Source of the DNA: Alphaproteobacteria bacterium
Lineage (GTDB): Bacteria; Pseudomonadota; Alphaproteobacteria; Micropepsales; Micropepsaceae
NCBI GenBank assembly: GCA_013697055.1
Contig: JACCXK010000079.1
Location: forward strand, 1 to 32,309
Reading direction: 5' to 3'
DNA length: 32,309 nt
Part shown: positions 4,907 through 14,205 of the stretch, piece by piece
Layout of the letters: each line of letters opens with the position of its first letter
Numbering within the stretch: the stretch's first letter is position 1
The notes under the pieces: model-generated
What the model was told of the DNA's origin: nothing
Database searches by the model: none
What the model saw: only the letters and a program-made list of their open reading frames with translations
Made by a program: the position numbers and the translations under genes

Positions 4907-6676
4907 TCAGGAAATATGCGCGCGGCGCAGCGCATCCTGCATATCTGCAAAAACACTGTCCCAATCGCCGGGCTCGCGCTGACGAAACAGCCGCAGGGTC
5001 GGATACCAGGGGCTTTGCGCGCTTTCGAGAAACCAGCGCCAATCCGGCACAAACTTGAGCGCCACCCAGGCGGGACGGCCCAGCGCCCCGGCAAGATGGG
5101 CAAGCGACGTGTCGAGCGTGATCACCAGGTCCAGGCTTTCCATCACCGCGGCGCTGTCCAGAAAGGCATCGCCGGAATCCAAATCACCCAATTCCTCCAC
5201 TTTGACGCCGGCGCTCCTGATCTGCGCGGTGCCATCGCCTTTCTGCAGGCTGATCAGGCGCACATGTTCCATCTGCGAAATCGGCGCCAGGAGCGAAAGC
5301 GGGAAAGAACGGTTCGCAATGCTGGCGGCGCCCTGCCAGCAAATGCCGATCTTGAAGCCGTGGCTGCCGATGCGCCCGCGCCATGTCTCCACACGCCCGG
5401 TTTGCGCCTTCAGATAGGGAACGGGCGCGGGAATTGTGTCGCGCGTGGTGCCAAACGCCAGCGGCAGGCTCATCAGGGGGCTGTGATAATCGAAGTGTTG
5501 CGGCACGCCGGCGCCGCCCAGGATTTCGATATCGCCGCCGGCATCGCGCATCAGCGGCACGATGGGGTCCTGCACCGCCAGGATCACGCGGGCGCCCTTT
5601 GCCCGCGCCATCAGCGCGTAGCGAAAGAACAGTATGGTGTCGCCCAATCCCTGTTCGATATAGCAAAACAGGGTCTTTCCGGCGATATCCTCGGCGCCAG
5701 TCCAGAGCGGCTGGTGGTAATTGCGCTGCTCGATCGGCGCCGGCAATTGCTTGCGCCACTCATAAAGACGAAAGCCTTCCTCCAGATCGCCGGTCAACAG
5801 CTTGACGATGCCCCTGGACCAATGGGCCAGCGCATGGCCGCCGTCCAGCGCCAGCACGCGGTCGAAATCGCCCAGCGCCTTTTCGAACCGCATCAGGCCC
5901 TGATGCGCGGCGCCGCGATTGTTAGCTGCATCCAGATAATCGGGACGGATCGCCAGCGCGCGAGAATAGCTTTCGATGGCCTCTTCATGCCGGTTCAGGT
6001 CCTGCAGGATATTGCCGCGATCGTTCAGCGCCTGGGCATTGGCATCGTCCAGCGCCAGCGCCCCGTCGGCCGCGGCCAGCGCAGCGCCCAGCCGCCCCAG
6101 CCGGCGCAGCACATGGGCGCGGTTGTTGTGGGTCTGGGCGTGACGGGGCGACAGACTCAGCGCCCGGTCATAGCTGGCCAGCGCATCCTCCAGCCGGCCC
6201 AGCCCCTGCAGCGCATTGCCCCGGTTGTTCCAGCCTTCGGCAAAATCCGGATGGATCGCCACCGCCAAATCCAAATCCGCCAACGCTTCCTGGAAATGCC
6301 GCTGGCTGACCAGCAGCAGGCCGCGGGCGTTCGCCAGATCGGCGTGGCGCGGATGCAGCGCGATGGCGCGGTCATAGCTGGCCAGCGCTTCGGGCCCACG
6401 CCCCAGCGCCGCCAGCACGTTGCCGTGATTGAGCAGCGCCAGATCGGAATCGGGATGGATGGCCAGGGCCGCGGTCAAAAGCTCCAGCGCCTCGCTGTGG
6501 CGGCCCTGTTGGTGGCGCAGAATGCCAAGGAGCAACTGGGCAGTGAAATCACCCGGCGCGGCGCGCAGGACCGTGAGATACAGCGGCTCGGCCTCTGCCA
6601 GGCGGCCGCCTTGATGCAGCGCAAAAGCCTGTTCCAGGACGGCTTCGATATCCATGCTGCGAATATCTTGCATCAT
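4907..6676 (-). CDS. TPR protein with C-terminal glycosyltransferase-like domain
   Basis: A 589-residue cytoplasmic protein. Residues about 10-310 are eight or nine tetratricopeptide units of 34 residues with the usual pattern (ALASYDRAIALHP, EEAIESYSRALAIRPDY). From about 330 to the end is a domain like those of TPR-linked glycosyltransferases of the GT9/GT41-like GT-B group: CYIEQGLGDTILFFRYA near 338-354, GICWQGA near 445, and LVITLDTSLAHLAGALG near 530. Such proteins are thought to glycosylate proteins or envelope polymers, but activity is inferred. The first ATG (6676) is followed by others at 6673 and 6655 (MDIEAVLEQAF), and none has a strong Shine-Dalgarno. It is divergent from the cytochrome c gene, with 76 bp between the starts. 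Confidence 0.85.
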   Translation of the reverse strand: MMQDIRSMDIEAVLEQAFALHQGGRLAEAEPLYLTVLRAAPGDFTAQLLLGILRHQQGRHSEALELLTAALAIHPDSDLALLNHGNVLAALGRGPEALASYDRAIALHPRHADLANARGLLLVSQRHFQEALADLDLAVAIHPDFAEGWNNRGNALQGLGRLEDALASYDRALSLSPRHAQTHNNRAHVLRRLGRLGAALAAADGALALDDANAQALNDRGNILQDLNRHEEAIESYSRALAIRPDYLDAANNRGAAHQGLMRFEKALGDFDRVLALDGGHALAHWSRGIVKLLTGDLEEGFRLYEWRKQLPAPIEQRNYHQPLWTGAEDIAGKTLFCYIEQGLGDTILFFRYALMARAKGARVILAVQDPIVPLMRDAGGDIEILGGAGVPQHFDYHSPLMSLPLAFGTTRDTIPAPVPYLKAQTGRVETWRGRIGSHGFKIGICWQGAASIANRSFPLSLLAPISQMEHVRLISLQKGDGTAQIRSAGVKVEELGDLDSGDAFLDSAAVMESLDLVITLDTSLAHLAGALGRPAWVALKFVPDWRWFLESAQSPWYPTLRLFRQREPGDWDSVFADMQDALRRAHIS

Positions 6677-6752
6677 CGCCAGTTTTGCTAGCCAATCCGG
6701 GGGCTTGCCGTTATCGTAGGCGTATCAGGACACCCTCCCCAAGGACACGGAT

Positions 6753-7163
6753 ATGAACCGCCCGCTTCTGCTCGTTGCCGCCGCCCTCTTTGTCGCCGCG
6801 GCGCCGCTGGCCATTGCCCAGGCAGCCAAGCCCGCTCTTTATACCGACGCCCAGGCCACGGCCGGCGCACAGGCCTATGCCTCATCCTGCGCCGCCTGCC
6901 ATGGCGCGCAGCTGGAGGGCGTCGCTGCGCCTGCGCTGAAAGGCGCCCCCTTCGGCGAGATGGCCACGGCGCAAAGCATGACTGCCGGCGCCCTGCTGGA
7001 CGTGATCACCAACACCATGCCGCAGTCCGATCCCGGTTCGCTGAAGCCGGAGGAATATGCCGCCGTCACCGCCTATATCCTGCAGCAGAACGGCTATCCG
7101 GCCGGAACGACGGCGCTGGCCGCGGGCTCCGCGGCCGCAAAAGACGCCAAGGTCATGCCGTAA
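6753..7163 (+). CDS. Periplasmic class I cytochrome c
   Basis: A 136-residue protein with a Sec signal peptide (about 22-25 residues, ending near AIAQA) and one haem c site, CAACH, at residues 46-50. Met89 in the NTMPQSDPGSL segment is the likely distal haem ligand, and LKPEEYAAVTAYIL is the typical last helix. It has an AAGGA Shine-Dalgarno 8-9 bases before the ATG. Only 19 bases separate its stop from the start of the PQQ dehydrogenase gene, so it is very probably the electron acceptor of that enzyme, passing electrons to a terminal oxidase. The tail after about residue 115 is Ala-rich and low complexity. Confidence 0.92.
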   Translation: MNRPLLLVAAALFVAAAPLAIAQAAKPALYTDAQATAGAQAYASSCAACHGAQLEGVAAPALKGAPFGEMATAQSMTAGALLDVITNTMPQSDPGSLKPEEYAAVTAYILQQNGYPAGTTALAAGSAAAKDAKVMP

Positions 7164-7182
7164 TCGTCTCCTGGAGCTGGTC

Positions 7183-8985
7183 ATGAAGAAATCCGTGATC
7201 GCTTTGCTGGCGGCGGCGTGCCTTTGCGGCAGCGCGTTGGCGCAAGCGCCCCAGCCTCAGCCGGCGCTCGGCGTGCCCGCACTCGGCGTGCCCGCACTTG
7301 GCGTGAAAGGCAGCGCCGGCGAAGCGGCCCCGGCGGTGGGCGCGAGCACCGCGCCCAAGCCGGAAAGCTTTCTAAACCGGGCGGCGACGCAGAATGTCGA
7401 TATCCGCGATGCCATGATGCTGGACGCCGACAAGTCCGATGGCTGGATCCTGCACGGGCGCACTTTCGACAATCAGCGCTTCTCGCCGCTTACCGACATC
7501 AACCTGTCGAATGTCAGCAAGCTGCGGCCCACCGCCATCCTGCAGACTGGGGTCGCGAAGAATTTCGAGAATACCGCCATCGCGGTGGACGGCGTGCTGT
7601 ATCTCAGCACCGCCGACAACAAGGTGATGGCCTACGACGCCGTCACCGGCCAGCAGCTTTGGTCCTATATTCCAACCCTCGCCTATTCCAACCTGTGCTG
7701 CGGCCAGATCTCGCGCGGCGTGGCGGTGGCCTATGGCAAGGTGTTTTCCGCCCAGCTTGACGGCCATGTCGTGGCGCTGGACGCGCGCAGCGGCAAGCTG
7801 CTCTGGAAGACCGATCACGCCGAGGTGCTGCCCCAGCCGGCGGTGTTCTATTCCTTCACCATGGCGCCCATCGCCTTCAACGGCATGATCCTGGTGGGCA
7901 ATGCCGGCGCGGAATGGCCGACGCGCGGCTTCCTGCAGGCGCTGGATGCCAATACCGGCAAGCTGGTGTGGCGCTTCAATACGACGGCTGCGCCCGACCA
8001 GCCCGGCGGCAAGACGTGGGAAGGCGATAGCTGGAAATATGGCGGCGGCTCGGTGTGGAATACGCCCGCTATCGATACCAAGAACAACCTGATCCTGTTC
8101 GCGGTGGGCAATCCCAATCCCGACTTGGACGGCACCAGCCGCAAGGGCGACAATGCCTATACCGACTCCGTGGTCGCCATCGACAGCCGCACCGGCAAAC
8201 TGCGCTGGTGGTACCAGGAAGTGGCGCACGACATCTGGGACCTGGACGCCTGCGCGCCGGTGGTGCTGTTCGACACGGTGGACGAAAAGGGCAGGCCCGT
8301 TCAAGCCGCCGCCCATGCCGGCAAGACTGGCATCGTCTATATCGTCAACCGGCTGACCGGAAAGCTGATCCGCAAGTCGCCGCCCTTTGTCGATGTCAGC
8401 GCCAATTTCATGACCGCGCTGGGGCCGGTGCCCAAGACCATCTGGCCCGCCAATCATGGCGGCGCGATGTGGCAACCGCCGGCCTATTCGCCCCAGACGA
8501 AATATCTCTATCAGTTGGGCATCAACGAGGCGCACGACTATACCGTCAAGCAGCCGCTGACAGAGGTTTACAAACCCGGCACCCCGATCCGCGGCCAGTA
8601 TGCCGGCGGCGACATGGCGCTGAACACCAAGGTCTTCATTCCCAGCGGCACCTTCAGCGCCATCGATGTCGACACCGGCGCCATTGCCTGGCAGGTCAAG
8701 TCCGACCGGCCTTACTTCAGCGGCGTGGTCGCCACGGCGGGCGGCCTGGTCTTCACCGGCGAGATGAACGGCGACTTCGTGGCCCACGACGCCAGGACAG
8801 GCAAGAAGGTCTGGGCCTATCCGCTGGGCGCCGGGGTCTGCACCCCGCCCATCACCTACAAGGTCAAAGGCGTGCAATATGTCGCGGTCGGCGCCGGGGG
8901 CTGTCACGGCGGCGAGATTTTCATGCAGAATGAGGGCAAGGCGATCTTCGGCGATGTCTTCGCCATCTTCGCGCTGCCGAACTGA
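7183..8985 (+). CDS. PQQ-dependent alcohol dehydrogenase (quinoprotein)
   Basis: A 600-residue periplasmic eight-bladed propeller enzyme that oxidises an alcohol or sugar-like substrate with bound pyrroloquinoline quinone. The start at 7183 has a GGAG site 8 bases upstream and a clear signal peptide (cut after ALA, residue 20). A Pro/Ala linker holding three tandem ALGVP-type units (residues 28-41) precedes the propeller. Family marks are the vicinal disulfide Cys172-Cys173, PQQ/metal residues Glu129, Glu244 (NAGAEWP) and Asn310 (GNPNPD), and the catalytic region HDIWDLD with Asp353. A second Asp (355) lies two residues on, giving the DxD pattern seen in lanthanide enzymes but also in membrane glucose dehydrogenases. 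There is no haem domain (no CxxCH), so the upstream cytochrome c is the likely partner. The exact substrate is unknown. Confidence 0.92.
   Translation: MKKSVIALLAAACLCGSALAQAPQPQPALGVPALGVPALGVKGSAGEAAPAVGASTAPKPESFLNRAATQNVDIRDAMMLDADKSDGWILHGRTFDNQRFSPLTDINLSNVSKLRPTAILQTGVAKNFENTAIAVDGVLYLSTADNKVMAYDAVTGQQLWSYIPTLAYSNLCCGQISRGVAVAYGKVFSAQLDGHVVALDARSGKLLWKTDHAEVLPQPAVFYSFTMAPIAFNGMILVGNAGAEWPTRGFLQALDANTGKLVWRFNTTAAPDQPGGKTWEGDSWKYGGGSVWNTPAIDTKNNLILFAVGNPNPDLDGTSRKGDNAYTDSVVAIDSRTGKLRWWYQEVAHDIWDLDACAPVVLFDTVDEKGRPVQAAAHAGKTGIVYIVNRLTGKLIRKSPPFVDVSANFMTALGPVPKTIWPANHGGAMWQPPAYSPQTKYLYQLGINEAHDYTVKQPLTEVYKPGTPIRGQYAGGDMALNTKVFIPSGTFSAIDVDTGAIAWQVKSDRPYFSGVVATAGGLVFTGEMNGDFVAHDARTGKKVWAYPLGAGVCTPPITYKVKGVQYVAVGAGGCHGGEIFMQNEGKAIFGDVFAIFALPN
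7264..7305 (+). repeat. Three tandem 15-bp units in the dehydrogenase linker
   Basis: Units begin at 7264, 7279 and 7294, differ at a few bases and encode Ala-Leu-Gly-Val-Pro twice, then Ala-Leu-Gly-Val-Lys. They sit in the linker between signal peptide and propeller and keep the reading frame. Confidence 0.9.
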
Positions 8986-9005
8986 TCTAAACGGGGGCCC
9001 ACATC

Positions 9006-9710
9006 ATGGATGCCAACACCAGGAAAATCCTGGAAGCCATTTCCACCGCCACCCTAACCACGGTGCTTTTGAAAAAAGGACTGCGCAATGTCTGGCTGCG
9101 CGGCCCTTTCCCCAAACAGCCCAATCAGAAGCGGGTGGTGGGCACCGCCTTCACCTTGCGCTTTGTGCCGGCGCGCGAAGACCTGGCGACACCGGCAAGC
9201 TGGGCCTCGCCCATCTCCACCCGCGCCGCCATCGAGGCGATGGAAGAAGGCGTCATCGCCGTGGCCGACGCCAATGGCGTGACCGACGCCGGCATCTTCG
9301 GTGACATTCTCTGCGCCCGCATGGCCAAGCGGAAGGTCGGCGCCCTGATCACCGACGGGGTGATGCGCGACATGGACGGCGTGCTGGCGACCGGCTTGCC
9401 GGTGTGGTGCGCCGGCGCGGCGGCACCGGCGAGCGTGGCGGGCCTGACCTTCGTCAACTGGCAGGAGCCCATCGGTTGCGGCGGCGTGGCGGTATTTCCC
9501 GGTGACACCATCGTGGCCGATGGCGACGGCGCGGTGGTGATCCCGCAAGCCATGCTGGCCGAGGTGACTGAAGCCGCCGCCGAACAGGAAGTTCTGGAAT
9601 CCTGGATCATGGGCGAAGTGGAAAAGGGTGTGCCCCTGCCCGGCCTTTATCCGCCGAACGATGAGAACAAGGCCAAGTACGCCGCCTGGCGGAAAAGCCA
9701 GAAAAGCTAG
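9006..9710 (+). CDS. RraA-like / HMG-CHA aldolase family protein
   Basis: A 234-residue cytoplasmic protein of the RraA fold. The family includes the RNase E regulator RraA and divalent-metal aldolases that release pyruvate from 4-hydroxy-4-methyl-2-oxoglutarate and related 4-carboxy-4-hydroxy-2-oxoacids. Visible marks are GIFGDILCARMAKRK (Gly99-Asp100), ITDGVMRD (Asp117, Arg121, Asp122) and FPGDTIVADGDGAVVIP. Asp100 and Arg121 are 20 residues apart, the spacing I recall for the aldolase members. It starts 20 bases after the dehydrogenase stop, behind a G-rich stretch, and is the last gene of the operon. The metabolic setting favours an enzyme over an RNase regulator, but this is inference. 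Its TAG stop overlaps the stop of the convergent GntR gene in a shared CTAG. Confidence 0.85.
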   Translation: MDANTRKILEAISTATLTTVLLKKGLRNVWLRGPFPKQPNQKRVVGTAFTLRFVPAREDLATPASWASPISTRAAIEAMEEGVIAVADANGVTDAGIFGDILCARMAKRKVGALITDGVMRDMDGVLATGLPVWCAGAAAPASVAGLTFVNWQEPIGCGGVAVFPGDTIVADGDGAVVIPQAMLAEVTEAAAEQEVLESWIMGEVEKGVPLPGLYPPNDENKAKYAAWRKSQKS

Positions 9711-10363
9711 TCTTTTATAAAATCGCGCAGCCGCCCATAGCTGCGCTCGATATGCCGGCGCATGGCGGCCTCGGCCTTTGTGCTATCGCGCGCCTGGATG
9801 GCGGCGATGATGCCGTCATGTTCATGCACCGCTTCCTCCGTGATCTCGCTGCGAAAACAGGAGCGGAAGATGTGGACATGGATGTGCAGCCGCGCCAGCG
9901 AATCCGCGATCAGGTGATTGCCGGCGCCTTGCGCGATCAGGCGGTGGAATTCGGTGTCCATGTCGGCAAAGGCGTCGTGTGACGGCGCCGTCTCGCCGCT
10001 GGCAAGCTGGTGCATGTCGGCATCGGCCATGGCCTCGGCGGCCTTGCGCGCGGCATGGGGTTCGATCAAGAGGCGGAATTCAAACAGCTCATCCAGCTGG
10101 GCGCGGTCCATGCGCTGGCTGGTGGCATAGCCGGCGAAGTGACGCTTGGAGACCAGGCCATTGGCTTCCAGCATAGACAGCGCCTCCCGGATCGGGGTCT
10201 GGGACACGTTCAGCTTGCGGGCCAGCTCGTCCACCGAAACCCGGGTATCGGGCGGAATCTTGAGGGACATGATATCGGCCCGGACGCGGCGGTAGACCTC
10301 TTCCGCCAGCCCGGAGGGGCGGGCGATGGGCCGGTCGGCTGCTTCATTGCGTGCTGAGGCCAC
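9707..10363 (-). CDS. GntR-family transcriptional regulator, FCD subfamily
   Basis: A 218-residue regulator. The N-terminal winged helix-turn-helix spans about 20-85 (VSVDELARKLNVSQTPIREA is the GntR signature). The C-terminal all-helical FCD domain (about 88-215) keeps a metal-binding set: Asp136, His140 (DTEFH), His182 (EHDGIIAAI) and His204 (MRRHIERS). FCD regulators bind small carboxylates or sugar acids and are mostly repressors of nearby catabolic genes. Its position between the PQQ and Ldh_2/ADH/ALDH operons, divergent from the latter, suggests it controls one or both. Its stop overlaps that of the RraA-like gene. The palindrome at 10447-10458 is its likely target. Confidence 0.93.
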   Translation of the reverse strand: MASARNEAADRPIARPSGLAEEVYRRVRADIMSLKIPPDTRVSVDELARKLNVSQTPIREALSMLEANGLVSKRHFAGYATSQRMDRAQLDELFEFRLLIEPHAARKAAEAMADADMHQLASGETAPSHDAFADMDTEFHRLIAQGAGNHLIADSLARLHIHVHIFRSCFRSEITEEAVHEHDGIIAAIQARDSTKAEAAMRRHIERSYGRLRDFIKD

Positions 10364-10433
10364 GGAACTCTCTCATCAGGAAGTGGGCCCACAGAAAGAC
10401 TGGTTTTGCCATTGACCGGGCGGAGCATAACCC

Positions 10434-10458
10434 ATAGGTTTCGAAAATCCTATAGGAT
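10434..10458. promoter_or_regulatory. Candidate GntR operator
   Basis: A perfect 12-bp palindrome, ATCCTATAGGAT, occupies 10447-10458 in the intergenic region between the GntR gene and the Ldh_2 gene. A further ATAGG at 10434-10438 forms an inverted pair with CCTAT at 10449-10453, with 10 bases between. The right half of the palindrome (AGGA, 10454-10457) is also the likely ribosome-binding site for the GTG start at 10468, so a bound repressor would block expression. The site is seen in the sequence; its use by this GntR is inferred. Confidence 0.55.
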
Positions 10459-10467
10459 ATTTGATCC

Positions 10468-11490
10468 GTGAAGGTCGCCGTCAAGGACGTCCGCAAGCTG
10501 GCCGAGGGCATCCTGCTCGCCAATGGTGTGCCGGGGTCCCACGCCGCCACCCAAGCCGGCCTGTTCATCGAAGCGGAAATGCGCGCCATTCCCAGCCACG
10601 GCCTGCTGCGCCTGCGCCGGGTGATCGAACGCATCCATGCCGGCCTGTCCAACCCGACCACGACCGGCAACCAGCAATGGACCGCACGCGCCTTCCTGTC
10701 GGTGGACGGGGAGCGCGGCCTTGGCCCCGTCATCGCGATGGCGGCGCTGGACACCATCATTCCGCGCGCCAAGGAAGACGGCATCGCCATCGCCGCCATC
10801 CGCAACACCAATCACCTCGGCGCGCTCGCCTATTACGCCGAGCATGTCGCCAATCAAGGCCTCACCTGCATCGCCCTGACCATATCCGAAGCGCTGGTGC
10901 ATCCCTGGGGCGGGCGCAAGGCGATGATCGGCACCAATCCCATCGCCATCGGCGTGCCCGCCGATCCAACTCCCATGGTGCTCGATATGGCGACCGGGCT
11001 CGTCTCCATGGGCAAGATTCACGACCACGCCAATCGCGGCGCACCGATCCCGTTGGGTTGGGCGCTGGACGAAAACGGCGATCCCACCACCGACGCCTCC
11101 GCCGCCAAGAAAGGCGCCATCGCGCCGTTCGGCGGGCCGAAGGGTTATGCGCTGGGCATCGCCTTTGAAGTGCTGGTAGCCAGCCTCGCCGCCTCCGCCA
11201 TCGGCACCGGCGTGAAGGGCACGCTGGATTCGGTCAATGTCTCCAACAAGGGTGACATTTTCATCGTCATTGCCCCGCCCCATGCCGAAGGCGCCAAGGC
11301 GCTGGTCACCGCGTATCTGGAAGACATTCGCGGCGCCGCGCCCTCCGATCCCGCCCATCCGGTGCTGGCGCCGGGCGACCGCGCCCATGCCGCGCGGGCG
11401 CAATCGGAAAAGCGCGGCATGTTCATCGACGACGGGTTGTGGGGCGACCTCCAGAAGCTATCAGAAGAATCCAAGAAGGAAATATCATGA
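10468..11490 (+). CDS. Ldh_2 / malate-lactate-ureidoglycolate dehydrogenase family oxidoreductase
   Basis: A 340-residue NAD(P)-dependent enzyme of the type 2 malate/L-lactate dehydrogenase family (YlbC/AllD, sulfolactate dehydrogenase, YiaK, piperideine-2-carboxylate reductase), unrelated to Rossmann dehydrogenases. Family motifs are Ser43-His44-Gly45 (IPSHGLLRL), VDGERGLGP near 79-87, NTNHLG with the probable catalytic His116, GTNPIAIGVP and LDMATG. It interconverts a 2-oxo acid and a 2-hydroxy acid (or an imino acid). The start is GTG 10468, 10 bases after an AGGA. The gene opens the second operon and its stop overlaps the ATG of the next gene (ATGA). The substrate cannot be assigned. Confidence 0.9.
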   Translation: MKVAVKDVRKLAEGILLANGVPGSHAATQAGLFIEAEMRAIPSHGLLRLRRVIERIHAGLSNPTTTGNQQWTARAFLSVDGERGLGPVIAMAALDTIIPRAKEDGIAIAAIRNTNHLGALAYYAEHVANQGLTCIALTISEALVHPWGGRKAMIGTNPIAIGVPADPTPMVLDMATGLVSMGKIHDHANRGAPIPLGWALDENGDPTTDASAAKKGAIAPFGGPKGYALGIAFEVLVASLAASAIGTGVKGTLDSVNVSNKGDIFIVIAPPHAEGAKALVTAYLEDIRGAAPSDPAHPVLAPGDRAHAARAQSEKRGMFIDDGLWGDLQKLSEESKKEIS

Positions 11491-12707
11491 CCCAATTGTT
11501 CGGCGCCCTGCGCCTGCCTGCCTCTGTAATTTTCGGCTCCGGCCAGCGCGCCGCGCTGGGCATGATGACGGCGCAGATCGGCAAGCGTGCGCTGATCTGC
11601 ACCGATGCGCGCATGGCCGGCGATGCCCAGTTCAAGGCCATCGTGGCCGACCTGGAAGCCAATGGTGTGAAGACACGCGTCTATGACCGCACCGAAGCCG
11701 ATCTGCCGATCGAAGGCATTTCCGGTTGCGTTACCGAATGCGCCGATTTCCAGCCGGATGTGGTGCTGGGCATCGGCGGCGGTTCCTGCATGGACATGGC
11801 CAAGTGCGTGGCGGTGCTGCTGAAGCACGGCGGGTCTTTGCGTGACTATTACGGCGAGAACAAAATCCCCGGCCCGGTGGCGCCGGTGATCGCCGTGCCG
11901 ACCACTGCGGGCACCGGATCGGAAGTCACGCCTGTGGCGGTGATCGCCGATACCGAACGCGGCACCAAGGTGGGCATTTCCAGCCCGTACCTCATTCCGA
12001 AAATCGCGGTGTGCGATCCGGAACTGACCCTCACCTGCCCGCCCGGTCTCACGGCGGTGAGCGGCGCCGATGCCCTGACCCACGCCATCGAAAGCTTCAC
12101 CGCCGCCGCCCGCGACGTGACACCCGATCTCACCGTCAAGAATGTGTTCGTGGGCAAGAATATCCTCAGCGACACCTTCGGCCTGCTGGCGCTCAAAAAC
12201 ATCTTCAAGGCGCTGCGCACCGCGGTGAAGGACGGCAAGAATATCGAAGCGCGCGAGCAGATGATGCTGGCCTCGCTGGCGGCGGGCTGCGCCTTCGGCG
12301 CGGCCGGCACCGCCGCGGCCCATGCCATCCAGTATCCGGTGGGCAACGAAACCCACACCCCGCATGGCATGGGGGTGGCGCTGCTGATGCCCTATGTGAT
12401 GGAGTTCAATCGGCCCAACTGCGTCAGCTGCTTTGCCGAGATCGGCCGCGCCATCGGCCTGACAGGCACGGATGAAGAACTGTCCCGCAAAGTGATCGAC
12501 GAAGTCGCCAGCCTGCTCAAGGATATCGGCATTCCCGTGACCCTGCGCGAGCTGGGCCTGCCCGAAAACAAGCAGGACTGGACGGCGGAAAGCGCCATCG
12601 GCGCCGCCCGCCTGATCAACAATAATCCGAGGCTGCTGGATGTGGACGCCCTGAAGGCGATCACCCGCGCTGCCTTCTCGGGCGACCGCGCCACGCTTGC
12701 TTCCTGA
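11487..12707 (+). CDS. Iron-containing alcohol dehydrogenase (type III)
   Basis: A 406-residue NAD(P)-dependent group III alcohol dehydrogenase. The start is ATG 11487, which overlaps the previous stop as ATGA and has an AAGGA site upstream; the open frame reaching further back is not needed. The nucleotide-binding GGGS motif is at 97-100, TTAGTGSEVTP is at 139-149, and the metal ligands Asp195, His199, His279 and His293 are all present (SGADALTHAIES; AAHAIQYPVGNETHTPHG). Paired with the ALDH next door it could oxidise an alcohol to an aldehyde and on to an acid; 4-hydroxybutyrate dehydrogenase is one family role that fits. It is co-transcribed with its neighbours. Confidence 0.93.
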   Translation: MTQLFGALRLPASVIFGSGQRAALGMMTAQIGKRALICTDARMAGDAQFKAIVADLEANGVKTRVYDRTEADLPIEGISGCVTECADFQPDVVLGIGGGSCMDMAKCVAVLLKHGGSLRDYYGENKIPGPVAPVIAVPTTAGTGSEVTPVAVIADTERGTKVGISSPYLIPKIAVCDPELTLTCPPGLTAVSGADALTHAIESFTAAARDVTPDLTVKNVFVGKNILSDTFGLLALKNIFKALRTAVKDGKNIEAREQMMLASLAAGCAFGAAGTAAAHAIQYPVGNETHTPHGMGVALLMPYVMEFNRPNCVSCFAEIGRAIGLTGTDEELSRKVIDEVASLLKDIGIPVTLRELGLPENKQDWTAESAIGAARLINNNPRLLDVDALKAITRAAFSGDRATLAS

Positions 12708-12723
12708 TTTCAAAGAGAGAGCC

Positions 12724-14205
12724 ATGACCAATACCCTGACTTTGCCCACACCCAAGACTGGCCCCGCGCCCTTCCCCATTCCCACCGACCTGTGGATCGG
12801 CGGCCAATGGGTCCCAGCCACCGGCAACAAACGCGTCGATGTGTTCGATCCTTCGACCGGCAAGAAAATTTGCGACGTGGCGGATTGCGATGCCGCCGAT
12901 GCCCTGGCTGCGGTGGACGCCGCCGACAAGGCCGCCGCCGGCTGGGCTGCGACCACGCCGCGCCAGCGCGCCGAGATCCTACGCAAATGCTACGAACAGA
13001 TCGTCGCCAATATCGAATGGCTGGCCTATCTGATCGCCCTCGAAAACGGCAAGGCGCTGCCCGACGCGCGCGCCGAAGTTCTGTATGCCGCCGAATTCTA
13101 CCGCTGGTATGCCGAGGAATGCTGTCATGTGCTGGGCGAAATCGCCCTGGCCCCGGCCAGCGGCGCCCGCATCCTGGTGCAATACCAGCCCATGGGCGTG
13201 GCGCTGTTGATCACGCCCTGGAATTATCCCGCGGCCATGGCGACCCGCAAGATCGCGCCGGCCCTGGCGGCCGGCTGCACCGTGGTGCTGAAGCCCGCCA
13301 CCGAAACCCCACTCACCGCCTTTGCCGTCGCACAGATCATGCATGACTGCGGCGTGCCGGCCGGTGTGGTGAATGTCGTCACCACCGCCAAGGCCAGCCC
13401 CCTGTCCAAGGCCTTGCTGCATGACCCGCGGGTGCGCAAGATTTCCTTCACCGGCTCGACCCCGGTGGGCCGCGCCCTGTTGCATGAAGCGGCCGACCAG
13501 GTGATTTCCTGCGCCATGGAATTGGGCGGCAATGCGCCCTTCATCGTCTGCAAGGATGCCAACCTGAACGACGCACTGGATGGCGCCATGCTGGCCAAGA
13601 TGCGCAACAGCGGCGAGGCCTGCACCGCCGCCAACCGCTTCTATGTCCACAAGGACATTTACGGGCCTTTCACCGACGGCATGGTTGCGCGCATGTCGGC
13701 GATCAAGCTGGGCGAAGCCACCGATCCGGAATCGACCCTGGGCCCGATGGTGAACGAGAAATCCGTCGCCAAGATCGCCGAACTGGTGGATGACGCCGTG
13801 GCCAAGGGCGCCAAGCTGCTGCTGGGCGGCCAGCGCCTCAACCGGCCCGGCTATTACTATCCGCCGACCGTGCTGTCCGACGTGCCCGACAATGCCGACA
13901 TGATGAAGGAAGAGATTTTCGGACCGGTGGTGTCGCTGCAATCCTTCGAGGACGAGGCCGAGGCCATCCGCAAGGCCAACGACACCGAGTACGGCCTAGC
14001 AGCCTATGTCTATACCCAGGACCTCAAGCGCGGCATGCAGATCTGCGAGAAGCTGGAAGCCGGCATGCTGGGGCTCAATCGCGGCCTGATGTCGGACCCG
14101 GCAGCGCCGTTCGGCGGCGTCAAGCAATCGGGCCTGGGCCGCGAAGGCTCGCACCATGGGTTGATCGAGTTCTGCGAGATCAAGTACGTCTCGACGAACT
14201 GGTAG
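12724..14205 (+). CDS. NAD(P)-dependent aldehyde dehydrogenase, succinate-semialdehyde-dehydrogenase-like
   Basis: A 493-residue ALDH-superfamily enzyme that oxidises an aldehyde to a carboxylic acid in the cytoplasm. The start is ATG 12724, behind an AAAGAGAGA Shine-Dalgarno and 16 bases after the alcohol dehydrogenase stop. Catalytic residues are present: Asn167 (PWNYP), Lys190 (LKPATETP), Glu266 (MELGGNAPF) and Cys300 (NSGEACTAANR). The GQACxxxNR-type loop, here GEACTAANR, and the overall pattern resemble GabD/SSADH-like members. It is the last gene of the operon, followed by a double hairpin repeat. The substrate is a guess: succinic or 2-oxoglutaric semialdehyde, or another small aldehyde. 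Confidence 0.92.
   Translation: MTNTLTLPTPKTGPAPFPIPTDLWIGGQWVPATGNKRVDVFDPSTGKKICDVADCDAADALAAVDAADKAAAGWAATTPRQRAEILRKCYEQIVANIEWLAYLIALENGKALPDARAEVLYAAEFYRWYAEECCHVLGEIALAPASGARILVQYQPMGVALLITPWNYPAAMATRKIAPALAAGCTVVLKPATETPLTAFAVAQIMHDCGVPAGVVNVVTTAKASPLSKALLHDPRVRKISFTGSTPVGRALLHEAADQVISCAMELGGNAPFIVCKDANLNDALDGAMLAKMRNSGEACTAANRFYVHKDIYGPFTDGMVARMSAIKLGEATDPESTLGPMVNEKSVAKIAELVDDAVAKGAKLLLGGQRLNRPGYYYPPTVLSDVPDNADMMKEEIFGPVVSLQSFEDEAEAIRKANDTEYGLAAYVYTQDLKRGMQICEKLEAGMLGLNRGLMSDPAAPFGGVKQSGLGREGSHHGLIEFCEIKYVSTNW

Follow-up and report, generated by a model that had tools for sequence, protein, structure and literature searches.

The locus studied here raises the question of whether two short sets of oxidation genes, lying on either side of a single GntR-family regulator gene, serve one pathway, and what that pathway might consume. 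The window, i.e., the whole stretch of 32,309 nucleotides that was analyzed (contig JACCXK010000079.1, Alphaproteobacteria, Micropepsaceae), encodes on its forward strand a first set, operon 1, with a secreted mono-heme cytochrome c (positions 6753 to 7163; PF13442/PF00034, with a CxxCH heme motif and a signal-like N-terminus in the translation), a PQQ-dependent alcohol/aldose dehydrogenase (7183 to 8985; PF01011, also with a signal-like N-terminus), and an RraA-like protein (9006 to 9710; PF03737 and NCBIfam PRK08245, 338 bits against a cut-off of 208). Operon 2, on the same strand, comprises a 2-hydroxyacid oxidoreductase of the Ldh_2 (malate/L-lactate/sulfolactate dehydrogenase) family (10468 to 11490; PF02615, 331 bits), an iron-type alcohol dehydrogenase (Fe-ADH; 11487 to 12707; PF00465 and PF25137), and a succinate-semialdehyde dehydrogenase (SSADH)-like aldehyde dehydrogenase (ALDH; 12724 to 14205; PF00171, 551 bits), and the FCD-type regulator gene (9707 to 10363; PF00392 and PF07729) lies between the two sets on the reverse strand. 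All families were accepted on Pfam scores above the gathering cut-offs, and the open reading frame calls give gaps of 19 bp (7164 to 7182) and 20 bp (8986 to 9005) in operon 1 and a 4-bp overlap (11487 to 11490) followed by 16 bp (12708 to 12723) in operon 2, so that the places, families, spacings, and operon structure reported in a preliminary description of this DNA are confirmed. No inner-membrane solute importer was recognized among the window proteins scanned.

With respect to regulation, we observe a palindrome, ATCCTATAGGAT (10447 to 10458, no strand assigned), which ends 9 bp upstream of the Ldh_2 start and is, judging from sequence, the probable operator to which the GntR-family regulator would bind. 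It occurs with at most two mismatches in all 36 regions scanned first (0.22 expected from shuffles) and in 42 of 45 once extra loci were added, with L080, L208, and L211 holding no acceptable copy (three to four mismatches). As read from protein matches and annotation, 31 of these 36 regions have Ldh_2 as the first module gene downstream of the site. In the window's own genome the palindrome is the sole copy within one mismatch, with one two-mismatch site elsewhere; of 69 same-genus genomes, 14 contain the exact 14-mer, and none of these has it outside the module. The window scan found no second site within two mismatches, hence none before operon 1, and the number of three-mismatch sites (3 found, 3.98 expected) is not above chance.

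Within the genus, the two gene sets are linked. Fifteen pieces around an RraA homolog (at least 70% identity) were compared, and 14 of them (L039 to L052, some truncated where the contig stops) have the regulator gene and module genes next to RraA; L056 carries RraA with no module beside it. RraA adjoins gntR in 15 of the 20 same-genus genomes with Fe-ADH, RraA of this type being absent from the other five, and the distance is at most 1.5 kb in all 15 genomes that have both the module and RraA. The PQQ dehydrogenase gene is absent from this spot in 6 of 14 relatives. Beyond the genus, GntR, Fe-ADH, and SSADH-like ALDH, usually with Ldh_2, occur together in rhizobia, roseobacters, sphingomonads, Variovorax, Hydrogenophaga, and Billgrantia, and the core occurs without operon 1 in the loci read. 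The expected co-conservation of the six-gene neighborhood holds inside the genus but not beyond it in the loci read. Because the conserved site stands only before operon 2, the core is found without operon 1, and RraA is missing from 5 of 20 genomes, the earlier reading of two operons arranged around one regulator is not supported; we regard operon 2 plus gntR as a portable catabolic module and operon 1 as a genus-level attachment to it.

The portable module varies in its own composition and in its company. Ldh_2 has no match in L068, L070, L072 to L074, L087, L091, and L093, and its match in L210 covers residues 13 to 101 and 219 to 337 only, so the Ldh_2 step is not universal. The variant settings add acid, lactone, or sugar handling: an alpha/beta hydrolase and DJ-1 in some, in most cases joined by a sugar-type ABC importer (the importer in rhizobia), an Amidohydro_2 lactonase-like protein and a TRAP system in others, SMP-30 in a wider Sphingobium cluster, in Sinorhizobium medicae an HpcH/HpaI aldolase on the far side of the GntR gene, and an MR_MLE dehydratase-like protein. 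Fe-ADH has matches in 148 plasmid records, of which 127 are from Sinorhizobium or Rhizobium. The three dehydrogenases bear generic names only in the regions read, and no published description of the gene set was found in the literature searched.

The enzymes of operon 2 retain most catalytic residues. Fe-ADH D196, H200, H280, and H294 (numbering of the stretch 11484 to 12704), which we take to be the metal ligands, are invariant in 15 aligned homologs, and alignment with GabD shows that the ALDH has the same catalytic Cys and the same Arg/Arg/Ser that hold the carboxylate in SSADH. No enzyme reaches a substrate-specific curated cut-off: the ALDH scores 552.9 bits as SSADH (TIGR01780, cut-off 646.35), Fe-ADH 210.8 bits as 4-hydroxybutyrate dehydrogenase (NF058672, cut-off 500), and the Ldh_2 protein 245.6 bits in its best NCBIfam match, L-sulfolactate dehydrogenase (NF040650, cut-off 500). 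The closest solved relative of the Ldh_2 protein, 3uoe, is named only "Dehydrogenase." Pairwise distances of the module genes correlate (r = 0.75 to 0.92, 30 to 41 loci per pair, matches covering <80% of the query dropped, relatedness of the loci uncorrected), and no pair agrees more closely than Ldh_2 does with Fe-ADH and GntR (r = 0.92).

In operon 1, the cytochrome c is the probable electron acceptor of the PQQ enzyme. The latter, whose best solved relatives are type II quinohemoprotein alcohol dehydrogenases, carries two vicinal Cys residues and an Asp-x-Asp pair at the presumed metal site; W-D-[LY]-D is found in 9/9 same-genus copies looked at and aligns with W-D-F-D of 6zcv, so that its sequence places a second Asp two residues past the catalytic one. 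We take this motif as a lanthanide-type sign that is not diagnostic, since membrane glucose dehydrogenases presumably have it too. As a methanol/ethanol dehydrogenase (TIGR03075) the protein falls short (410.7 bits, cut-off 480.05), although PF01011 is far above its cut-off. Upstream, a conserved sequence (6688 to 6718, forward strand), possibly a promoter or leader, resembles by eye a stretch before the cytochrome c gene in L039, L042, L045, and L046 and was not seen in the other upstream regions compared in this way; it is unlike the site before operon 2 and unique in the window, and no sigma-70-type promoter was called in its region.

The RraA-like protein is likely, from its residues, a class II pyruvate aldolase or 2-oxo-acid decarboxylase. 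It belongs to the same family as the HMG/CHA aldolase of Pseudomonas putida F1 (3NOJ), and the alignment keeps the equivalents of Arg-123, Asp-124, and Glu-199 common to both, with Arg-Asp in 15/15 same-genus copies looked at. According to the enzyme study (PMC5065237), Arg-123 stabilizes the enolate and Asp-124 and Glu-199 bind the metal, Lys-147 and Asn-71 are proposed to bind the CHA carboxylate and are required for HMG turnover, and kcat of the P. putida enzyme on HMG drops by a factor of more than 1,000 with K147A or N71A. Unlike 3NOJ, to which its similarity is only 55.8 bits, the RraA-like protein has Ala at Lys-147, and Asn-71 falls outside the alignment; we therefore do not file it as an HMG/CHA aldolase. 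Outside the genus, RraA of this type has few recurring neighbors. SDR, DapA-like, MR_MLE, and IlvD families each recur in 3 to 4 of 21 RraA loci; L054 holds a homolog with IlvD/Edd, MR_MLE, DapA-like, and SDR genes and L056 one with MR_MLE. The RraA family is often labelled as RNase regulators, and if the aldolase step holds it would give one branch of this large family a physiological job.

Taken together, the module is carried by many soil and marine bacteria and probably burns some hydroxylated acid or lactone. In our working model, which keeps the general chemistry proposed earlier (oxidation in the periplasm, oxidation of C2 and of a semialdehyde in the cytosol, pyruvate release) and which we hold with somewhat less than even confidence, the catabolic module of operon 2 and gntR works together with RraA in this genus to provide a route to pyruvate. 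An intermediate would make the GntR protein leave ATCCTATAGGAT and so open operon 2; in the cytosol, Fe-ADH would act on a hydroxy compound that is carboxylated (or derived from a lactone), oxidizing its primary alcohol to give a semialdehyde, the ALDH would oxidize this to an acid, the Ldh_2 enzyme would turn the 2-hydroxyl into a 2-oxo group, and in this genus the RraA-type aldolase would split or decarboxylate the 2-oxo acid to pyruvate. In the periplasm, the substrate may be produced or supplied by the PQQ dehydrogenase and cytochrome c, both of them secreted and encoded in an operon that has no GntR-linked site; our guess for the substrate is a C4 to C6 2,omega-dihydroxy acid or its lactone. 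A broader version, fairly doubtful, would be a widespread undescribed pathway that consumes a hydroxy-lactone or dihydroxy acid common in the environment. Its portable cassette (GntR with its one operator, dehydrogenases for a primary alcohol and a semialdehyde, and in most cases another for a 2-hydroxyacid) would be coupled by lineage to interchangeable uptake systems, lactonases, and nonhomologous pyruvate aldolases (RraA, HpcH/HpaI, HMGL-type), and in this genus a PQQ enzyme whose metal site is of the lanthanide type would feed it.

Several other readings were weighed. The module might convert 4-hydroxybutyrate or gamma-butyrolactone to succinate, with Ldh_2 and RraA belonging elsewhere: Fe-ADH, SSADH-like ALDH, and hydrolase resemble the Agrobacterium blcABC (attKLM) gamma-butyrolactone operon, which shares the idea (hydroxybutyrate dehydrogenase, SSADH, and lactonase), the carboxylate-binding residues are kept in the ALDH, and L070, L091, and L093 have Fe-ADH, ALDH, and alpha/beta hydrolase with no Ldh_2 match. 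The blcABC regulator and hydrolase families, however, are different, no Ldh_2 is known there, and Fe-ADH and ALDH miss the family cut-offs (210.8 versus 500 and 552.9 versus 646.35 bits), while Ldh_2 comes first after the site in 31/36 regions and follows Fe-ADH and GntR in its distances (r = 0.92). Because these cut-offs are missed and 4-hydroxybutyrate would leave a 2-hydroxyacid dehydrogenase with nothing to do, this compound, earlier suggested as an entry point, is not supported, and we consider the route quite unlikely. Pantoate or pantolactone catabolism (pantoate to 4-dehydropantoate and 3,3-dimethylmalate by Fe-ADH and ALDH, then to 2-oxoisovalerate by oxidative decarboxylation through Ldh_2; the route involves EC 1.1.1.106 and 1.1.1.84) fits the order of enzyme types and the hydrolases or lactonase-like proteins that go with the module elsewhere, but it leaves RraA without a role, no pantothenase, valine, or branched-chain gene was recognized in the loci read, and literature on such genes was not found among the matches listed, which makes it very improbable.

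A sugar-acid or deoxy-polyol pathway, in which the PQQ enzyme and lactonases yield an aldonic acid, the module oxidizes C2 and the distal end of that acid, and a 2-oxo-3-deoxy acid serves as the substrate for cleavage by RraA, would draw on the neighbors of RraA in L054, L056, and the 21 loci and on the sugar-type importer of the rhizobial module. It appears unlikely, since such neighbors occur in a minority of the 21 loci, the binding residues of the ALDH suggest a short semialdehyde with a carboxylate, and iron-type alcohol dehydrogenases are not known to act on sugar acids. Finally, operon 1 may be functionally unrelated to operon 2 and its neighbor by ancestry alone, as would suit the convergent genes, the lack of a common cis site, the PQQ gene missing from this spot in 6/14 relatives, and the core found elsewhere without operon 1. 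Against this, which we also think improbable, stand the constant proximity of RraA to gntR in all 15 genomes with both and the PQQ dehydrogenase and cytochrome c genes of a sphingomonad Fe-ADH/ALDH cluster.

That cluster, in Sphingobium indicum B90A pSRL1 and Sphingomonas echinoides, shares with the window Fe-ADH (63%), ALDH (60 to 61%), GntR, PQQ dehydrogenases, and cytochromes c, and has the site with one and zero mismatches, respectively. Unlike in the window, Ldh_2 and RraA were not seen in the stretch, and an amidohydrolase, a galactonate-type MFS transporter, a CaiB CoA-transferase, and an enoyl-CoA hydratase are added. With respect to other aldolases within the genus, two RraA-less genomes have a 4-hydroxy-2-oxovalerate aldolase gene, adjoining acetaldehyde dehydrogenase, 1.7 to 2.7 kb from the ALDH gene. 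This aldolase exceeds its cut-off in 10/17 Fe-ADH-bearing versus 4/38 other same-genus genomes (P = 0.0004, relatedness uncorrected), and its higher frequency in genomes lacking RraA (4/4 versus 6/13) does not reach significance (P = 0.10). The aldolase cassette of G006/G045 also sits on contigs other than the module's in four genomes, including the window's own.

The module also has a copy in a model strain, Sinorhizobium meliloti 1021, where the pSymA cluster of gabD3 (SMa0260), SMa0263, SMa0267, and SMa0270 has GntR, Ldh_2, Fe-ADH, and ALDH genes arranged as they are here (locus tags were placed on pSymA coordinates by order only). The segment 145822 to 151175 aligns from end to end, at 98%, with the locus annotated in strain M162 and contains a two-mismatch copy of the site. 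The M162 stretch, unlike the window, has a sugar-type ABC importer, DJ-1/PfpI, and an alpha/beta hydrolase, and no PQQ dehydrogenase, cytochrome c, or RraA in the part read. No substrate for the S. meliloti cluster was found in the literature passages searched. A single conserved site, together with the presence of the module in a model strain, puts the inducer and through it the substrate within direct reach. In one table of a PhaR study, gabD3, SMa0263, and SMa0270 are all lowered, among many other genes (PMC12542648).

The locus is real, conserved and catabolic, combining a portable module, which carries a conserved site of its own, with a genus-level add-on. All seven genes of the preliminary description exist at the positions assigned to them: cytochrome c (6753-7163), PQQ dehydrogenase (7183-8985) and the RraA-like protein (9006-9710) as operon 1, Ldh_2 (10468-11490), the Fe-alcohol dehydrogenase (Fe-ADH; 11487-12707) and the aldehyde dehydrogenase (ALDH; 12724-14205) as operon 2, both on the forward strand, and the GntR-FCD gene between them on the reverse strand (9707-10363). 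Its intergenic distances (19 and 20 bp; a 4-bp overlap and 16 bp) are exact with starts at 7183, 11487 and 12724, and Pfam backs each of its gene families.

Directly before the ldh2 start, the gntR-ldh2 intergenic stretches carry the 12-base palindrome ATCCTATAGGAT (window 10447-10458), a predicted operator. With at most two mismatches it is present in 36 of 36 scanned regions (exact in 18, one mismatch in 10 and two in 8), 15 of them from the genus, window included, and 21 from elsewhere, while dinucleotide shuffles lead one to expect such a site in 0.22 of 36. Nine further loci with an adjacent gntR (L077, L080, L087, L091, L208-L212) were scanned later; six have the site at no more than one mismatch (L077, L087, L091, L209, L210, L212), and it was not found in L080 and L208 (3 mismatches each) or in L211 (4 mismatches), giving 42 of 45 gntR-adjacent regions overall. 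In five loci whose module has no gntR beside it (L068, L071, L081, L085, L097), the upstream stretch scanned holds no site at up to 3 mismatches, and in L098, with gntR some 6 kb away from the module, a site with 2 mismatches lies above gntR, indicating that the site accompanies the regulator gene. The window's own genome has a single copy of the 14-mer ATCCTATAGGATAT, with the palindrome matching on the other strand as well, and just one second site within 2 mismatches of it (G000:C171:3174-3187). The exact 14-mer is found in 14 of 69 genomes of the genus, always at this place, with 0 matches to a reversed control pattern.

From its position and linkage, we infer that GntR binds this site; the simplest reading is that it controls operon 2, and probably itself too. 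The preliminary description placed both operons around this one regulator, and for operon 1 our site scans of the window and the same-genus sequences found nothing that links the two. Before operon 1, the window has no further GntR-type site at up to 2 mismatches, and the only extra site in the 15 same-genus sequences scanned (L052:155, 2 mismatches) is far from both operons. A different conserved stretch (6688-6718), with no copy of the site, precedes the cytochrome c gene.

With respect to conservation within the genus, some RraA match was found in 54 of the 147 relatives searched (the window's own genome measures 3.77 Mb in 256 contigs), and we took the neighbourhoods of the 18 best non-self loci (L039-L056). 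The regulator and module genes adjoin rraA in 14 same-genus pieces (L039-L052), several of them cut by contig ends, with 0.8 to 1.4 kb of other sequence between gntR and rraA in L048, L050 and L051. The PQQ gene lies within the operon in 7 of the 14 (L039-L042, L045, L046, L049), is displaced in L051 and is absent from the spot in the other 6 (L043, L044, L047, L048, L050, L052). L053-L056, of which L056 alone is from the genus, have RraA at 70 to 76% without the other genes searched. Fe-ADH is found at E <= 1e-90 in 21 of the 147 relatives, 20 of which belong to the genus (own genome counted); 15 of these 20 have an RraA homologue (76 to 100%), the exceptions being G006, G008, G045, G052 and the partial G061. 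The ALDHs of L049 and L052 are 61 to 63% identical to that of the window, versus 86 to 96% in the other same-genus pieces, with the rest of the operon conserved, and are probably gene replacements. In L210 (G045; 9937-10543), Ldh_2 matches are limited to residues 13-101 and 219-337, which suggests a shortened or broken gene; the module is otherwise intact. A SelO gene (PF02696; 14301-15755, reverse strand) borders the ALDH gene, as it does in 9 of the 14 pieces; the remaining five stop short of this position. In L040 and L041, the PQQ gene is directly preceded by a second, tandem PQQ dehydrogenase gene, 65 to 77% identical to that of the window and cut by the contig end. The window's genome holds a large set of PQQ-type beta-propeller dehydrogenases (45 matching pieces, some genes being two pieces). 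Divergent to operon 1 are genes for a TonB-dependent receptor (PF00593/PF07715; 1145-4504) and a TPR protein (4907-6676), both on the reverse strand, and by eye the same TPR and receptor-like order adjoins the cluster in L050 (9644-15271); they are a possible outer-membrane uptake partner.

Family scores define the chemistry loosely. RraA is the sole protein over a curated cut-off among the NCBIfam matches shown (PRK08245, 338 bits versus 208), and the family name is uninformative. The best matches of the others fall under their cut-offs: sulfolactate dehydrogenase for Ldh_2 (245.6 bits; 500), SarD for Fe-ADH (257.7; 700), SSADH for ALDH among the best 25 of 44 families (552.9; 646.35), and 410.7 bits against 480.05 for the PQQ dehydrogenase. 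Fe-ADH also stays under the cut-off of the 4-hydroxybutyrate dehydrogenase model (210.8; 500). The query stretches for Fe-ADH and ALDH sometimes open one codon before the start, and the PQQ stretch used for the Pfam, NCBIfam and solved-structure comparisons opens 14 codons early, the search of the own genome having taken the longer ORF; neither is expected to affect the results. A sulfonate (DHPS/sulfolactate) pathway was rejected, as the loci examined showed no recognisable gene for sulfite release.

In the alignment, ALDH keeps the Cys and the three positions that we take to be catalytic and to bind the SSADH carboxylate, respectively, pointing to a semialdehyde bearing a carboxylate as its likely substrate; loss of a carboxylate Arg was considered and rejected once the residues were placed. 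The presumed metal ligands of Fe-ADH are invariant in 15 homologues, and the protein may have an ADHFE1/HOT-like insert. The PQQ dehydrogenase has the vicinal Cys pair and, in all 9 same-genus copies inspected, W-D-[LY]-D, like 6zcv and unlike 1kv9, 1yiq and 1kb0. The second Asp of W-D-x-D is a lanthanide signature but is also common in membrane glucose dehydrogenases, so that a lanthanide-type metal site is a lead only. In the alignment, RraA shares Arg-123, Asp-124 and Glu-199 with the HMG/CHA aldolase 3NOJ and has Ala in place of Lys-147. According to sections of PMC5065237, Arg-123 is critical for catalysis, Asp-124 and Glu-199 bind metal, Asn-71/Lys-147 are proposed to bind the CHA carboxylate, and kcat on HMG drops by a factor of more than 1000 when Asn-71 or Lys-147 is changed to Ala; the same sections describe oxaloacetate decarboxylase activity through a common pyruvate enolate and consider most homologues likely to be class II pyruvate aldolases. 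Because Arg, Asp and Glu are kept and Lys-147 is not, a fair reading is that RraA would be a pyruvate aldolase/decarboxylase of a specificity other than HMG/CHA; it may also have a different chemistry. The Lys-147 to Ala result in these sections counts against the mechanism that we favour, in which Fe-ADH would oxidise a primary alcohol of a carboxylated hydroxy compound, ALDH the resulting semialdehyde and Ldh_2 the 2-hydroxyl, and RraA would release pyruvate; as a whole, we hold this mechanism to be tentative and somewhat on the doubtful side.

Could another aldolase stand in for RraA? Two genomes without RraA, G006 and G045, have a 4-hydroxy-2-oxovalerate aldolase gene near the ALDH gene, at distances of 2.7 and 1.7 kb; its product scores 571 and 567 bits, respectively, against a cut-off of 286. 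In G045 it adjoins an acylating acetaldehyde dehydrogenase gene (463; cut-off 282), of which G006 has a homologue at 86%; the two arrangements may be one event. Across 55 same-genus genomes, the aldolase passes its cut-off in 10 of the 17 that have Fe-ADH and in 4 of the 38 that do not (Fisher P = 0.0004, kinship ignored). Against this, it is found on contigs other than the module's in the four other module-bearing genomes looked at, the window's own included, and in 6 of 13 genomes having both RraA and Fe-ADH. Since it also occurs on other contigs in RraA-bearing genomes, the IclR/4-hydroxy-2-oxovalerate aldolase cassette was rejected as proof of a strict RraA substitute. The own-genome cassette (L214 on C127, 7576-10409) consists of IclR, the aldolase and the acylating acetaldehyde dehydrogenase, and by eye no genes of aromatic pathways could be recognised next to it. 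Cassettes of this kind are found in L215, L216 (a short contig) and L217, and the fifth locus taken, from G028, is by eye a classical aromatic cluster.

At class level, RraA is found at E <= 1e-75 in 24 of 385 genomes (own and one congener counted). A further 17 loci were taken (G365 and G802 left out), and the 21 loci clustered show few recurring neighbours (SDR 4, DapA-like 4, MR_MLE 3, IlvD/Edd 3); larger neighbour clusters overlap with the rraA gene and resemble shadow frames. L054 has a clear sugar-acid cluster around RraA, and L053 has myo-inositol oxygenase and an FGGY kinase.

Fe-ADH is found in 4 of 337 genomes of the class (E <= 1e-100; own and one congener counted), in 9 of 398 of the phylum sample (E <= 1e-90; own counted) and in 148 records among 72,556 plasmids, mainly Sinorhizobium (65) and Rhizobium (62). 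Among 10 annotated plasmid regions compared, five (R. leguminosarum WSM1325, S. meliloti, Pararhizobium, Alloyangia, Qingshengfaniella) combine GntR, Ldh_2, Fe-ADH and ALDH with an alpha/beta hydrolase and DJ-1/PfpI, and in all of these except WSM1325 a sugar-type ABC importer adjoins the GntR gene. Sphingobium indicum has Fe-ADH and ALDH with PQQ and cytochrome c genes, an amidohydrolase, MFS, a CoA-transferase and an enoyl-CoA hydratase. The remaining four join Ldh_2, Fe-ADH and ALDH to different partners: an HpcH/HpaI aldolase gene beyond the GntR gene that follows the module (S. medicae), MR_MLE and a peptide-type ABC (Agrobacterium leguminum), a serine/folate cluster (Mesorhizobium) and a sugar ABC (Aminobacter).

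The pathway is new in the sense of being undescribed in the literature searched, the enzyme kinds themselves being known, because searches on the gene set, the site and candidate substrates gave no description: we found no paper naming the genes together or with candidate substrates, none on the 12-base site and, by title and abstract start among the matches listed, none on such genes for pantoate. The S. meliloti module's locus tags are named in parts of PMC12542648 and PMC11387232, and no substrate for it turned up there. The replicon-deletion growth study PMC4207669 has D-ribono-1,4-lactone among its growth substrates, with no tie to this locus in the portion seen.

In named genomes, the Fe-ADH matches listed include Sphingomonas echinoides, Billgrantia, Variovorax, Hydrogenophaga, Microvirga and Microbacterium; neighbours were compared for 16 of at least 80 loci by tblastn and for three by ORF reading. 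Ldh_2 is not universal in the module, with no match in L068, L070, L072-L074, L087, L091 and L093. Microvirga aerilata (L096) has the module with a TRAP system, an Amidohydro_2 fuconolactonase-like protein, a HIBADH-type dehydrogenase, an enoyl-CoA hydratase and a CaiB 82% identical to that of Sphingobium. A highly similar pair of CaiB CoA-transferase and enoyl-CoA hydratase accompanies the Fe-ADH/ALDH genes in L096, L077 and L087 (Microvirga and sphingomonads), which suggests a CoA branch of the same pathway.
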